A stretch of DNA of 64,000 nucleotides, from NCBI GenBank assembly GCA_030055465.1, contig JASFYF010000001.1, forward strand, positions 475,179 through 539,178, written 5' to 3'. Source of the stretch: Candidatus Nezhaarchaeota archaeon (GTDB taxonomy: Archaea > Thermoproteota > Methanomethylicia > Nezhaarchaeales > WYZ-LMO8). The notes under the pieces are model-generated. The model did not search any database. It was not told the origin of the DNA and saw nothing but the letters and a program-made list of their open reading frames with translations. How positions within the stretch are numbered: position 1 is the first letter of the stretch; each line of letters opens with the position of its first letter. The translations under genes were made by a program, and so were the position numbers. This document shows, one piece after another, positions 3,528 through 57,649 of this stretch.

Positions 3528-3623
3528 CGCCGGGGGCGGGATTCGAACCCGCGAGGCCCAAAGGGCCACAGGCTATATGGAACGGCTCTCCAGGCCTGCC
3601 CCCTACCGCTAGGGTACCCCGGC
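3528..3623 (-). tRNA. tRNA-Ser(GGA) with 13-nt intron
   Basis: Acceptor GCCGGGG/CCCCGGC with G73, long variable arm (GGCCC-TTT-GGGCC) and T-arm GCGGG-TTCGAAT-CCCGC. The anticodon stem CAGGC/GCCTG encloses 20 bases; removing 13 bases (plus-strand 3575-3587) restores the loop CTGGAGA with anticodon GGA. The intron sits at the canonical 37/38 position; the boundary could shift by one base because both ends carry A. CCA is not encoded. Confidence 0.88.
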
Positions 3624-3650: not shown

Positions 3651-4671
3651 TTATTTCTTTTTTTCTACACCCTCCTTGGACCTCCAGAGCTTCGGGTACG
3701 TGCCTGGGAGCATCACGACCCTTAACGGTTTGGCAACCATCCCCTTATGCGCCTCTAGGATTTCGCGAGCATCCATTAAAGCACTGGCGAGGGCAACGAG
3801 CTCCCCCTTCAACGTCATTATCGCAACGGTCTCCCCTTTCCTCACGTCGCTCGTCAACGTTAACACGCCAGGCGCGGTTAGAAAAGCGCCGTGGCACACT
3901 GCGTCCACGGCTGAGTCCCTCACAGTTATCTTAGGTAGCCCTCGAGCCACCACCTCAACGGGCATTACCGCCCTCCTTAGGGGCTCCTCATCTCCCAGCT
4001 CCTTCCAAGCCACGACGGCCTCGTGGAGCTCGTGCATCGTGACTAACCCCTCATCCTCGCTGAAGGGGCCTGCCTGCACTCTTCGAAGCTCAGCCATGTG
4101 GGCTCCCACGCCCAGCACCTCGCCTATGTCATAGCACAGCTTCCTGATGTAAGTTCCAGCCTCGCAGTGGACCACCATTAACACGAGCCTTCCCCTCACC
4201 TCCTGCACGTCAATTGAGAAGATCTTCCTAACCCTCAGCCTCCTCTCCACAGAGGCCTTCAGGGGCGGCCTCTGGTATATGGGGCCCACGAACTCCTGGC
4301 ATACCTCCCGTACGCGCTCTTCTGGGGCGACCCCATGAAGCGCCATGACGCACACGTACCTCTTGTCGGAGTGCACCACGTAGTTAAGCACGTTCCTAGC
4401 CCTGCCAAGCGCTATAGGCAGCACTCCCGTTACTTTAGGGTCTCCCCGCCCTTTAAACGGGCTCTAGGGTACCCCCATGGCCTGCCCTGCTCGCTCCGAC
4501 AAGCTTCCTCACCCACGAGGCCACTTCGTGGCTTGTGGGGCCCGGTGGCTTATCCAAGTTTATAATCCCCAGCTCCAAGTGCAACTCGATAGGCCTCTTG
4601 TCGGGCGGGCAACCGTGATTGCAGTCCGTTGTGTCCTCCGCCTTAACCAGAAGCTCCACCGCTTTCACCAA
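3651..4671 (-). CDS. cbf5: tRNA/rRNA pseudouridine synthase Cbf5 (gene with archaeal mRNA intron)
   Basis: Catalytic subunit of H/ACA RNPs, also active on tRNA U55. Two open frames on the minus strand join into one 332-residue protein once 22 bases (4442-4463) are removed. Exon 1 encodes the N-terminus (INLDKPPGPTSHEVASW, GHGGTL) and exon 2 begins DPKVTGVLPIALG, so splicing restores the TruB/Cbf5 motif GHGGTLDPKVTG with its catalytic Asp. A PUA domain follows (KGETVAIMTLKGELVALA near the C-terminus). Unspliced, the frame ends a few codons after GTLEPV. It starts at TTG 4671, 21 bases after eL14. 999 coding bases remain after splicing. Confidence 0.93.
4442..4463 (-). other. Bulge-helix-bulge intron in cbf5 (22 nt)
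   Basis: On the coding strand the site reads CCCU-AG|A-GCCC-GUUUAAA-GGGC-GGGG-AG|A. Symmetric AGA bulges flank the central helix CCCU/GGGG, and an intronic helix GCCC/GGGC closes the loop. This matches the substrate of archaeal tRNA splicing endonuclease. Cutting after AG on both sides removes 22 bases and restores the reading frame and the codon GAC for the catalytic Asp (split G|AC). Introns of this kind in cbf5 are known in Crenarchaeota. Confidence 0.9.
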
Positions 4672-21251: not shown

Positions 21252-21359
21252 GGCCGAGGTAGCGTAGATTGGCTAACGCGCCGGCCTGTACCACCAAGGT
21301 TTCGAAAACCGGTGGGGGCAAGGAGCCGGAGATCGCGGGTTCAAGTCCCGCCCTCGGCC
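21252..21359 (+). tRNA. tRNA-His(GTG) with 32-nt intron splitting the anticodon
   Basis: Acceptor GCCGAGG/CCTCGGC with an encoded G at -1 (21252) and C73, the tRNA-His identity pair. D-arm GCGT/ACGC, T-arm GCGGG/CCCGC. An intron at 21290-21321 lies between positions 35 and 36. Its bulge-helix-bulge has exon GCCT paired to intron GGGC, bulges GT|A and AA|G, and intron helix CCACC/GGTGG. Splicing gives loop CTGTGGA with anticodon GTG. Unspliced, the loop misleadingly shows GTA. Confidence 0.88.
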
Positions 21360-33377: not shown

Positions 33378-36089
33378 ATGGCGGTCTCAGAGGAAGAGTA
33401 CAAGTTGAAGTTCTTTGTCGATAAGGGCTTCGTCAGAAAGAAGTGTAGGGTTTGCAACGCTGCTTTCTGGACCCTGGACGAGAGTAGAGAGGTATGCGGA
33501 GACTCGCCCTGCCAAGAATACGAGTTCATAGGCAGGGAGCTGAAAGCTAACGTGGACGTATCCTCTATTAGGAGGCTTTTCCTGGGCTTTTTTGAGGGTA
33601 AAGATCATAGAATCCTGAAGCCGTATCCAGTCGTTGCGAGGTGGCGCGACGACATCTACTTGACCATAGCTAGCATAGCGGTGTTCCAGCCTTTCGTCAC
33701 TGAGGGCATCGTGCCGCCCCCCGCAAACCCCCTCGTAATCTCGCAGCCCTGCATCCGGCTCGTGGACATAGATAACGTGGGTTTAACGGCTGGCAGGCAT
33801 TTAACGATATTCGAGATGGGTGGACACCACGCCTTCAACTACCCGGGGGAGGAGGTTTACTGGAAGGAGGAGACCGTTGAGTACTGTCACGAGTTCTTAA
33901 CCAACCTCGTCGGCATAGACGAGAAATCCATAACCTACAAGGAAGACTTCTGGGTTGGTGGAGGAAATGCCGGGCCGGACGTTGAAGTGTGCGTCGACGG
34001 CTTAGAGCTCGCGACCCTTGTCTTCATGTGCCTTAAAGTTGTAGACGAAGAAAAGTACGTTCCAATGCCCGTGAAGGTTGTCGATACGGGCTACGGCATC
34101 GAAAGGTTCACGTGGTTTTTGACGGGTAAGCCCACGGCTTTTCATGCGATATACGGCAACCTGATAAACGACGTTGCCGTTAATGCTGGTTTGGAAGTGC
34201 CCGACGAAGAACTCTTAAGCAGGGTTGCAAGGGCTTCAGCCCTCATGAGGGTTGAAAGGGGGAAGACCCTCGAGGAGCTTAGAAGAGAGCTTTCAAGCGT
34301 CACGAAGATACCTTTAGAGGTCCTTGAAAGGGAGGTTGCGCCCTTCGAGATGGTCTCCGCGCTTGTCGACCACTCCAAGTGCATTGCCTTCATGCTGTCG
34401 GATGGGGTTGTGCCGTCCAACGTCGGCGAGGGATACCTTGCGAGGCTCGTCATAAGGAGAGGCTTGAGGCTCTGTAACCTTTTACGCCTAGAAGAAGGCT
34501 ACTTGAAGCGGCTTGTTAATATACAGCTGAACTTGTGGAGTGACTTCTACCCAAAGCTGCTTGAAGCCAAGAAGGCGATAGATGAGATCCTCGACCTAGA
34601 AGAAGAAAAGTTCAAGCTTTTGGTTTCCCGCGGGAGGAGCTTCATACTGAAAGCCCTCAAAGAATTGAAGGGAAAGAGCCTCCCATTAGACTCGCTTCTG
34701 CAGCTTTACGATTCGCACGGCTTACCCCCTGAGCTCGTTAAAGAAGAGGCCGAAAATCTCGGGGTCAAACTCCAAGTACCGGGAAACTTCTATGGCCTCG
34801 TGGCGCGGCTACATCAACAAACAAGGGCTTCGAAGGCACAGCCCGAATACGATGTTCGTGGGCTACCGCCCACCAAAGCTCTATACTACGAAGATCAGCA
34901 TCAACTCGTCTTCGAGGCCAAAGTCCTGAAAAGCGGAGAGGGCTATGTGATCCTCGACCAAACATGCTTTTACCCTAGAGGTGGAGGACAAGATTCTGAT
35001 AGGGGTCTCCTGCTGCACGGGGATTTAAGGGTTGAAGTGGTGGACGCAGTAAAGGTTGGCGACGTCGTCGTTCACGTGATCAACGGTAAGATACCAGAGG
35101 GGGTGCGGGTCAAAGGCGAGGTGAACGCTGAAAGAAGGCTGGGCCTAACAAGACACCACAGCGCGACCCACGTACTTCTAGAGGCGATACGCAGAGTCAT
35201 TGGGGTCCATGCATGGCAGTCAGGAGCGCAGAAGTGGCCGGATAGAGCGCACATAGATATAACGCACTACAAACAATTGAGCCCGCAGGAGCTGGAAACA
35301 ATAGAAAACCTGGCGAACAACGTGGTTTTCAAGAACCTGCCAGTTAAAACGTATTTCCTTGGGAGAAGGAAGGCTGAAGACACATACGGTTTAGAGATAT
35401 ACCAGGGCGGCGTGGTGCCAGGAAAAGATGTTAGGATCGTCGAGGTGGAGGGATGGAACGCCCAAGCGTGCGGGGGAACGCACGTTTCATCAACTGGTGA
35501 GATAGGTCTAATAAAGGTTGTAAAGGTCGACAGAATACAGGACGGCATATTGAGGTTCGAATTTAAGGCTGGCAGAGCAGCACTAGACTACGTTAGAGAG
35601 CTCGAGAAGCAGATGTACAGCACTGCTCAGGTGCTCGAAAGCTCCGTAGATCAAGTACCCTATGCTGCCAGCAAGTTAAAGCTTGAAGTCAAGCAGCTTA
35701 GAAAAGAGGTGGAGAAGTTAAAGAGCAGGGTTATGGAAAGCCTGATGCCAAGTATAAGGGAGAGGTACAGAAGAGGAGAGCAGATAATAGATGTTGAGTT
35801 GGTGGACGTCGACTACGATGATATGATAGCGCTGGCCGAGAAAGCCGTAAGAGAAATGAGTGAAGCGGTCCTGCTACTCCTATCTAGGAGGGCAGACAAC
35901 TCGCTTCTCACAGTTGCCTGCGGCCCTAAAGCCATAGAAAAAGGCTTTGAAGCCAACAGGGTAGCCTCCGAGATAGTTCAAGTAGCCGGCGGAAAAGCTG
36001 GAGGCAAAAGGGATATAGCGAAAGGAATAGTCGAGGATTTAAACAAAGTTAAAGAAAAGATTAAAGAGCTAAACCTCAAACTCCTTTAG
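33378..36089 (+). CDS. alaS: Alanyl-tRNA synthetase
   Basis: 903 residues from ATG 33378 (ATG 33351 is in frame; a TATA-like CTATTTAAT near 33342-33350 favours a leaderless start at 33378). N-terminal archaeal zinc-like segment CRVCNAAFWTLDE, class II core (FEMGGHHAFNYPG; VDTGYGIERFTWF), editing domain (TRHHSATHVLLEAIRRV, QACGGTHVSSTGE) and C-terminal coiled coil/C-Ala (VAGGKAGGKRDIA). Its stop codon shares its last base with tRNA-Arg. Confidence 0.96.
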   Translation: MAVSEEEYKLKFFVDKGFVRKKCRVCNAAFWTLDESREVCGDSPCQEYEFIGRELKANVDVSSIRRLFLGFFEGKDHRILKPYPVVARWRDDIYLTIASIAVFQPFVTEGIVPPPANPLVISQPCIRLVDIDNVGLTAGRHLTIFEMGGHHAFNYPGEEVYWKEETVEYCHEFLTNLVGIDEKSITYKEDFWVGGGNAGPDVEVCVDGLELATLVFMCLKVVDEEKYVPMPVKVVDTGYGIERFTWFLTGKPTAFHAIYGNLINDVAVNAGLEVPDEELLSRVARASALMRVERGKTLEELRRELSSVTKIPLEVLEREVAPFEMVSALVDHSKCIAFMLSDGVVPSNVGEGYLARLVIRRGLRLCNLLRLEEGYLKRLVNIQLNLWSDFYPKLLEAKKAIDEILDLEEEKFKLLVSRGRSFILKALKELKGKSLPLDSLLQLYDSHGLPPELVKEEAENLGVKLQVPGNFYGLVARLHQQTRASKAQPEYDVRGLPPTKALYYEDQHQLVFEAKVLKSGEGYVILDQTCFYPRGGGQDSDRGLLLHGDLRVEVVDAVKVGDVVVHVINGKIPEGVRVKGEVNAERRLGLTRHHSATHVLLEAIRRVIGVHAWQSGAQKWPDRAHIDITHYKQLSPQELETIENLANNVVFKNLPVKTYFLGRRKAEDTYGLEIYQGGVVPGKDVRIVEVEGWNAQACGGTHVSSTGEIGLIKVVKVDRIQDGILRFEFKAGRAALDYVRELEKQMYSTAQVLESSVDQVPYAASKLKLEVKQLRKEVEKLKSRVMESLMPSIRERYRRGEQIIDVELVDVDYDDMIALAEKAVREMSEAVLLLLSRRADNSLLTVACGPKAIEKGFEANRVASEIVQVAGGKAGGKRDIAKGIVEDLNKVKEKIKELNLKLL

Positions 36090-36184
36090 GGCCCGTGGCG
36101 CAGCCCGGATAGCGCGGCATCAACTTAAAGGTTGCCGCAAGCCTTCTAAGCTGAAGGTCCCGGGTTCAAATCCCGGCGGGCCCG
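36089..36184 (+). tRNA. tRNA-Arg(TCT) with 21-nt intron in the anticodon stem
   Basis: Acceptor GGGCCCG/CGGGCCC, G73, encoded CCA (36185-36187). D-arm GCGC/GCGC, T-arm CCGGG/CCCGG. An intron at 36120-36140 lies between positions 29 and 30. It forms a complete bulge-helix-bulge: exon GCGG pairs intron CCGC, bulges CA|T and AA|G, intron helix CAAC/GTTG. Spliced loop CTTCTAA gives anticodon TCT. The stem keeps four pairs plus a G27-A43 mismatch. The first base is the last base of the alaS stop. Confidence 0.87.
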
Positions 36185-36187
36185 CCA

Positions 36188-55417: not shown

Positions 55418-57571
55418 ATAGACGTCGACGCTCTTGAAATACCATTAGAAGTTAAGCGGGTTCTCATAGAACAAGGCGTGAAGTGGCTTTACCCAACGCA
55501 GGAAAAAGCGATAGAGGCAGGCTTACTGAGGGGGAAAAGTGTCGTCGTCTCCGCGCCTACGGCATCTGGAAAGACCCTCATAGCCGAGCTAGCAATAACC
55601 AAGAAGGTCCTAGGCGAAGGAGTTAAAGCGTTATACCTAACGCCGCTGAGGGCATTAGCATATGAGAAGTGGCTCGAGTTCAAGAAGTACGAGGAACGCA
55701 AGCTAATGAAGGTCGCCGTAACTACAGGCGACTATGACAGCGACGACAGGTGGCTGACGGATTACAACCTCATAATATGCACCAATGAGAAGTTGGACAG
55801 CTTGATGAGGCATGGCGCTCCTTGGATAAGAGAGGTTGGAGTGGTGGTTTCAGACGAGGTACACCTGATAAACGATGTAGACAGGGGCCCAACCCTTGAG
55901 GTTGTGCTGGCTAGGTTAAAGAGCCTCATAGAGAATGTGCAAATAGTGGCTCTAAGCGCTACCATAAAGAATGCGGAGGCCATAGCAAAGTGGCTTGACG
56001 CTGAAGTTGTTAAGGTAAACTGGCGACCCGTACCGTTGAAGGTTGGCGTATGCCTGGAGAACAAGATAATGTTCAACACGGGCGAGGAGCACGTCTTCGA
56101 GAGGGTTTCCGGGGACCCTGTAATCGACATGGCGTTGGAGACCGTTAAGAGCGGTGGTCAATGCTTGGTCTTCGCCAACACCCGCCAAAATGCCATGAAG
56201 TACGCGAGAAAGATGGCAGAGCGCTTAGAGCCGCTGGTAAGGCCAAAGGATGTAGACGACTTGTGCGCTGAAATGAGCGAGGGGGAAGAGGCGTCGCTCA
56301 TAAATGCGGAGCTCGTTAGCTTATTGAGGAGGGGCAGCGCGTTTCATCATGCAGGCCTTTCTGCAAGGCAGCGGAGAATAATAGAGGAGGGCTTCAGGGG
56401 GTTTAAGATAAAGGTTGTGTGTTCAACGCCCACCCTAGCAGCCGGTGTCAATCTCCCGGCGAGGAGGGTTATAATCCAAGATTATAGAAGATATGATGTG
56501 GATCGCGGAATGCAAATGATCCCCATCTTAGAATTTCAGCAGATGGCGGGCAGAGCCGGTAGACCCCAATACGACGAATACGGCGAGGCAGTGGCTGTAG
56601 CGAGAAGCGAGGTTGAGGCTCACAACCTCTTTGAGCATTACGTATGCTCTGAACCGGAGGATATCACATCGCAGTTGACCAACGAGGCCTCTCTGAGGAA
56701 ACACGTGCTGGCGGCCGTGGCTTCCTTTGGAAAAACCACAAGCTTCGACGAGATAATGGGGTTCATTGCCAAGACGTTTTACGCCCACCAATTCACGCTT
56801 GTTGGTACATCGTTAACCGTACGCGGAGTCTTGAAGTTTCTGGAGAAGGAGGGGTTCATCAACGCCGAGGGGAGGGGGTTTCTCAGGGCCACGGAGCTAG
56901 GCCGCAGGGTGTCCGAGCTGTACATTGATCCTCTCTCAGCGCTCGTAGTGTTGAGGGGCCTGAAAGGCCTCAAGCTGATTGACGATTTGAGGTGCCTGCA
57001 CTTGGTGTGCAAGACGCCTGAAGTACCGAAGCTTCATGCAAGGAAGAAAGACTTTGAAATAATCGGAAGGCTTGCCGAGGAGATGGGAGAGACATCATTA
57101 AACGACGAGGGCGAGGAGGACATCATGTTAACGATATCCGAAATTAAAACTGCCCTGCTCATCTACGACTGGATGAACGAATTGTCGGAGGACGAAATAA
57201 TTTCAAGATATGACGTAGGGCCCGGAGACATACACAGCGTGGTGCAAGCTGCTGAGTGGATTTGCTATGCTACAAGCGAGCTAGCCAAGATAGCGGGCTA
57301 CCCCTCACACTCCAAGAAGTTTAGCACGTTAGCTCCACGCGTGAGGCTGGGAGTAAAGGAAGAGCTCCTAGAGCTAACTAAGCTTGAAGGCGTTGGAAGG
57401 GTGAGGGCGAGGGTATTGTATGAGCACGGCTATAAGAGCATTAAAGACGTTGCGAGGGCGAGGGCAAAGGACGTTGAGGGGCTCCCAAAAATAGGCCCCC
57501 GAATGGCGCGTAGGCTGGTGGAGCAAGCCCAAAGGATCTTAAAGGGAAGTGGTGGGGCCGGGGGGATTTGA
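55418..57571 (+). CDS. hel308: Hel308 DNA helicase (likely AUA start)
   Basis: 717 residues if started at ATA 55418; the first standard start is GTG 55478. The extra residues (DVDALEIPLEVKRVLIEQG) match the usual Hel308 N-terminus before LYPTQEKAIEAG, and AGGTGAT lies 5 bases before the ATA. Motifs: Q region, Walker A APTASGKT, DEVH, SAT, QMAGRAGRPQYDEYG, and a C-terminal HhH (LEGVGRVRARVLYEHG, LPKIGPRMARRL). Unwinds lagging-strand forks and branched DNA. Its 3' end overlaps tRNA-Pro by 19 bases. Confidence 0.93.
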   Translation: MDVDALEIPLEVKRVLIEQGVKWLYPTQEKAIEAGLLRGKSVVVSAPTASGKTLIAELAITKKVLGEGVKALYLTPLRALAYEKWLEFKKYEERKLMKVAVTTGDYDSDDRWLTDYNLIICTNEKLDSLMRHGAPWIREVGVVVSDEVHLINDVDRGPTLEVVLARLKSLIENVQIVALSATIKNAEAIAKWLDAEVVKVNWRPVPLKVGVCLENKIMFNTGEEHVFERVSGDPVIDMALETVKSGGQCLVFANTRQNAMKYARKMAERLEPLVRPKDVDDLCAEMSEGEEASLINAELVSLLRRGSAFHHAGLSARQRRIIEEGFRGFKIKVVCSTPTLAAGVNLPARRVIIQDYRRYDVDRGMQMIPILEFQQMAGRAGRPQYDEYGEAVAVARSEVEAHNLFEHYVCSEPEDITSQLTNEASLRKHVLAAVASFGKTTSFDEIMGFIAKTFYAHQFTLVGTSLTVRGVLKFLEKEGFINAEGRGFLRATELGRRVSELYIDPLSALVVLRGLKGLKLIDDLRCLHLVCKTPEVPKLHARKKDFEIIGRLAEEMGETSLNDEGEEDIMLTISEIKTALLIYDWMNELSEDEIISRYDVGPGDIHSVVQAAEWICYATSELAKIAGYPSHSKKFSTLAPRVRLGVKEELLELTKLEGVGRVRARVLYEHGYKSIKDVARARAKDVEGLPKIGPRMARRLVEQAQRILKGSGGAGGI

Positions 57572-57649
57572 ACCCCCGATCACCAGCGGTCCGTGAAGTG
57601 GGGACTTCTCCCCAGGCTGGCATCCTAATCCAAGCTAGACTACGGCCCC
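57553..57649 (-). tRNA. tRNA-Pro(GGG) with 21-nt intron
   Basis: Acceptor GGGGCCG/CGGCCCC, A73, encoded CCA (plus-strand 57550-57552). Anticodon stem CCAGC/GCTGG encloses 28 bases; a 21-base intron (plus 57589-57609) at 37/38 folds with helix GAAGT/ACTTC around CCCC, and exon CTGG pairs (3 of 4) with intron ACGG. Spliced loop CTGGGGC gives GGG with G37. The tRNA 3' end overlaps the hel308 coding end on the other strand. Confidence 0.86.

Follow-up and report, generated by a model that had tools for sequence, protein, structure and literature searches.

A predicted cbf5 pre-mRNA intron within the catalytic codon in a Methanomethylicia archaeon, and its occurrence across Thermoproteota

Introns of this kind in cbf5, the gene of the RNA-modifying enzyme Cbf5, were first described from other thermophilic archaea in 2002 (Watanabe 2002; also Yoshinari 2006). 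They have been reported in Desulfurococcales and Sulfolobales only, measure 16-44 nt, mostly fold into an unconventional bulge-helix-bulge (BHB) motif and have their boundary between the first and second letters of the catalytic Asp codon (PMC2738675, Yokobori 2009). The table of that 2009 survey reports spliced cDNA for several species, and a gain in the common ancestor of the two orders followed by losses was proposed, because both had the intron and the other groups sampled did not. In passages quoted there, some earlier annotators had read the crenarchaeal cases as frameshifts, and the intron had been proposed in 2002 to act as a negative regulator. As late as 2020, a paper named the cbf5 mRNA of crenarchaea as the sole other example and gave its function as unknown. 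In the open-access literature we found no cbf5 intron described from Methanomethylicia, Bathyarchaeota or Aigarchaeota, which is a lead rather than proof. Judging from the genome sequences, what is new here appears to be the range of the intron, in Methanomethylicia and widely across Thermoproteota, the kind of intron being already known.

The window, a stretch of 64,000 nt from a Candidatus Nezhaarchaeota archaeon, contains a cbf5 gene interrupted by 22 nt at 4442-4463 (Table 1). We consider it nearly certain that this interruption is an archaeal cbf5 pre-mRNA intron of the type cut by the tRNA-splicing endonuclease EndA and joined by RtcB. The original prediction had given exactly these coordinates and left the strand, which is the minus strand, unstated. 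Unspliced, the frame reads ...GGTLEPV and ends there, at an in-frame TAA inside the intron (4455-4453), and the 22 nt also shift the frame; the message cannot yield the full enzyme in this form, as had been claimed. Removing the 22 nt gives GGTLDPKVTGVLP, and the product has the predicted 332 aa and reads GGTLDPKVTG across the junction, including the GTLDPKVTG foreseen. In the message, the junction is 5'-GGG GGT ACC CTA G/agcccgtttaaagggcggggag/AC CCT AAA GTA ACG GGA-3'. The codon of the catalytic Asp is thus divided G/AC between bases 4464 and 4441, again as predicted, and exactly at the published boundary (PMC2738675). The spliced product scores 442 bits against the NCBIfam model NF003280 for Cbf5 (cut-off 242) and 419 bits against TIGR00425. 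It aligns to the archaeal Cbf5 of PDB entry 2aus_C with an E-value of 3e-111 and no gap at the junction, and it resembles archaeal Cbf5 end to end, the match beginning at residue 6.

Table 1. Features of the interrupted cbf5 gene and of its predicted splicing motif (positions in the window)
Feature	Position	Strand	Details and evidence
cbf5 exon 1	4464..4671	-	Putative TTG start at 4671; 69 codons plus G of GAC; ORF list, Cbf5 match
cbf5 intron, 22 nt, agcccgtttaaagggcggggag	4442..4463	-	In-frame TAA at 4455-4453; phase conserved in 106 distinct genes
cbf5 exon 2	3651..4441	-	Opens with AC of the Asp codon; stop codon included; Cbf5 match
Predicted spliced cbf5 junction	GGTACCCTAG^ACCCTAAAG	-	
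Central helix, 5' strand CCCU	4466..4469	-	Exon 1, part of the Thr-Leu codons; pairs with 4444-4447
5' bulge AG/A	4463..4465	-	Fold; cut expected at 4464/4463 from the published rule
Intron helix, 5' strand GCCC	4459..4462	-	Covaries with 4448-4451 in 92 introns of at least 18 nt
Intron helix, 3' strand GGGC	4448..4451	-	Covaries with 4459-4462 in 92 introns of at least 18 nt
Central helix, 3' strand GGGG (intron)	4444..4447	-	Pairs with 4466-4469 in 420 of 424 cells over 106 genes
3' bulge AG/A, relaxed	4441..4443	-	Fold; cut expected at 4442/4441

Upstream of cbf5, the same strand encodes a (d)CMP kinase and ribosomal protein L14e. A 96-nt tRNA-Gly(GCC) gene (3528-3623, minus strand) starts 27 nt downstream of cbf5; given its length, it probably has an intron of its own, and the two genes may share both a transcript and the endonuclease. 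Three other tRNA loci of the window are also of note. The one at 36089-36187 (plus strand) was called tRNA-Stop(tta) by ARAGORN and missed by Rfam. Removing about 21 nt leaves a tRNA-Arg(UCU) with an encoded CCA, which makes an unusually placed intron, of approximate borders, the probable explanation. Those at 21253-21359 (plus strand) and 57553-57649 (minus strand) were detected with the Rfam model and missed by ARAGORN, and they are long enough to suggest unusually placed introns.

Folding the RNA around the junctions recovered the two helices described in the original prediction, CCCU/GGGG in the centre and GCCC/GGGC in the intron, along with a 7-nt loop and, at the 5' junction, an AGA bulge of 3 nt. 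The 'textbook' BHB with AGA bulges on both sides stood only in part: the 5' bulge and both helices are canonical, while the 3' side is relaxed. There, the fold of lowest energy shows AG as a 2-nt bulge opposite one unpaired A, and imposing a strict 3-nt AGA bulge leaves the first two positions of the outer helix (A-C and U-C) unpaired. The intron therefore departs from the canonical hBHBh' form, in which two 3-nt bulges separated by 4 bp are both flanked by helices, and a BHB-like structure in the wider sense, canonical or relaxed, is present at both junctions by fold and covariation. On this model, the motif is a relaxed form of hBHBh' that would work like it. The fold energy, -20.5 kcal/mol for 46 nt (z -2.1, with 5 of 200 shuffles equally good), is only modestly beyond chance and is a weak argument alone, so it is the comparative evidence that carries the intron claim.

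Relatives were collected by a protein search over 60, after which the junctions were read directly, and in total 106 distinct intron-bearing and 112 intron-less cbf5 genes were compared. Each of the five other genomes of the family has the intron in the identical codon phase, and so does each of the three others of the order. Within the class, the junctions of families f4, f7 and f8 also contain it, and the genes read in f5, f6 and f9 were without it. Of the 424 central-helix cells of the 106 genes, 420 are paired (98, 99, 99 and 100% by position); for the first 35 genes, 139 of 140 cells were paired, where shuffled introns gave 66 on average. Among introns of at least 18 nt, the intron helix is paired at 98, 97, 93 and 90% by position, exceeding every letter reshuffling, and its first three positions pair in 265 of 276 cases in register, compared with 148 and 111 when slid. 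The exon side is constrained by the RNA structure as well: the Leu codon beside the intron is CTA in 93 of the 106 intron-bearing genes versus 9 of the 112 intron-less ones, and the Gly codon is GGG in 71 versus 19, a large contrast, although p-values for these pairing and codon statistics are not to be taken literally, the compared sequences being related rather than independent. Two readings of individual genes were rejected. Absence of the intron in G001 did not hold, as the frame-keeping 21-nt intron there contains a TAA, and a 44-nt 'intron' in L128 was a parsing artefact in an intron-less gene.

At ten loci, the cbf5 intron measures just 13-14 nt, below the published range of 16-44 nt and too short to leave space for an intron helix. 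Most of these introns form 7-8 of the 8 possible outer exon-exon pairs, giving a nearly perfect 8-bp outer helix. The mean number of outer pairs is 7.1 for introns shorter than 18 nt, 4.6 for longer ones and 3.5 at the same positions of intron-less genes, so that the inner and outer helices look as though they are traded against each other in short introns. As natural substrates of EndA, introns of 13-14 nt would be very small.

When 398 Thermoproteota genomes were scanned with a DNA pattern of the interrupted motif, 141 gave a match, and none matched the reversed control pattern; a specificity control with the pattern one base short gave 2 chance matches in the 398 genomes. Five matched rows were not cbf5 by sequence (those in G210, G222 and G303 and one of the two in each of G050 and G246), which leaves about 138 genomes, in some 40 families, with a true cbf5 intron. 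The uninterrupted pattern matched 174 of the 398. Six genomes served as a positive control, their intron sizes being those given in Table 1 of PMC2738675 for the species that we take them to be: S. acidocaldarius (22 nt), S. tokodaii (31 nt), D. mucosus (16 nt), S. hellenicus (36 nt), I. aggregans (39 nt) and C. lagunensis (29 nt).

Both states occur within several families, f10, f17, f32, f34, f39 and f55 included. On a Cbf5 tree of 218 sequences, at least 21 changes of state are needed, 14 of which are forced by well-supported branches; the tree was built by a fast method, has long branches and cannot distinguish gain from loss. The letters at the intron ends, agCC...GGcGGGGa, are common to Methanomethylicia, Desulfurococcales and Sulfolobales and fit common descent, although part of them is imposed by pairing with the exon. 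We lean slightly towards an intron far older than published, placed near the base of Thermoproteota, with many losses and forms down to 13 nt; the alternatives are that this codon gained an intron several times independently or that the intron was passed from one lineage to another. In the same tree, intron-bearing Cbf5 sequences of Methanomethylicia lie near those of methanosarcinal Euryarchaeota, whose cbf5 genes are without the intron; this proximity could be due to gene transfer or to an artefact of the fast tree.

An intron placed inside the catalytic codon and kept in many families might be thought to serve as a regulatory gate, with the rate of splicing setting the level of Cbf5 and of H/ACA pseudouridylation. 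The idea, raised in the original prediction, had already been put forward in 2002 in the form of a negative regulator (as quoted in PMC2738675), and it would be a function added to the intron rather than an alternative to it. We regard it as improbable: the distribution is patchy on the tree, one family of the class lacks the intron throughout, and the split codon alone explains retention. The many related lineages without the intron argue in particular against an essential regulatory role. The intron is probably old and kept mainly because of its flanks: these code for the invariant GTLDP motif, and the gene stays functional only if the deletion is exact. We infer that it persists because nothing but an exact loss is tolerated at the catalytic codon.

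The two open frames lie close together, and crenarchaeal cases were once annotated as frameshifts (as quoted in PMC2738675), as would suit programmed frameshifting or ribosomal bypassing in place of RNA splicing. This reading is very unlikely, given the in-frame stop within the 22 nt and the lengths of the 106 introns, which range from 13 to 40 nt and fall into all three classes modulo 3 (42, 37 and 27 genes), with the unspliced frame shifted or stopped in all 106. What is conserved is a BHB-like structure with its pairing, not a slippery site, and spliced cDNA has been reported for the same intron elsewhere (PMC2738675). That the 22 bases are a sequencing or assembly error absent from the organism is negligibly probable: the assembly is incomplete, but independent assemblies of the family and order are interrupted at the identical place by sequences of their own with matching helices. 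Equally negligible is a split Cbf5 made as two polypeptides, for although each frame could start at a codon of its own, the second would begin in frame no earlier than the GTG at 4424, past the catalytic Asp, so that neither piece would carry that residue, and the spliced product aligns gap-free to known Cbf5.

For the spliced intron, we propose the following course by analogy with what has been published for this intron in other archaea, which is the source for EndA cutting, RtcB joining and any effect on expression. In the transcript, CCCU of exon 1 would pair with GGGG near the 3' end of the intron, and the GCCC/GGGC intron helix would close the remainder, presenting two bulges. In each bulge, a heterotetrameric (alpha-beta)2 EndA would cut behind the second base; RtcB would join the exons, restoring the catalytic Asp codon GAC and the 332-aa Cbf5. 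The literature ties the heterotetrameric enzyme both to relaxed motifs and to the cbf5 intron. The genome itself has one EndA-like gene, of 177 aa, which aligns with the second, structural-type paralogue of its relatives. By alignment, it is without the DHAPF segment of the catalytic type, which we take to hold the catalytic His. The catalytic EndA subunit and RtcB were not found in this assembly, a single 1.02-Mb contig; as it is 67% complete, both are probably gaps. Two EndA paralogues were present in 13 of the 14 relatives searched, which fits a heterotetrameric enzyme, and RtcB in all 14.

These results bear on annotation, since cbf5 in about a third of the Thermoproteota sampled is called as two broken frames unless the intron is modelled. 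For evolution, the phylum-wide patchiness reopens the questions of when the intron arose and how it was lost so exactly.

Compared with the cbf5 introns of Desulfurococcales and Sulfolobales, the one described here shares the gene, the codon, the phase, a size within 16-44 nt, the relaxed BHB-like motif and the end letters. It differs in its host, which belongs to the class Methanomethylicia and thus lies outside both orders and the published range (itself not a mechanistic criterion), and in that its splicing is a prediction. The original assignment to the known crenarchaeal kind of cbf5 intron accordingly holds for the kind but not for Crenarchaeota as the frame of reference, as the genome groups with Ca. 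Methanomethylicota. The EndA-cut introns of archaeal tRNAs resemble the cbf5 intron in having a bulge-helix-bulge and a similar size, with the same enzyme expected, whereas the cbf5 intron lies in an mRNA without a tRNA body and its exon pairing is imposed on codons. With Haloferax HVO_1309 (PMC7714728), it would share an mRNA as substrate of EndA; the euryarchaeal BHB sites are located in the 5' untranslated region of another gene, whereas the cbf5 intron sits inside a catalytic codon.
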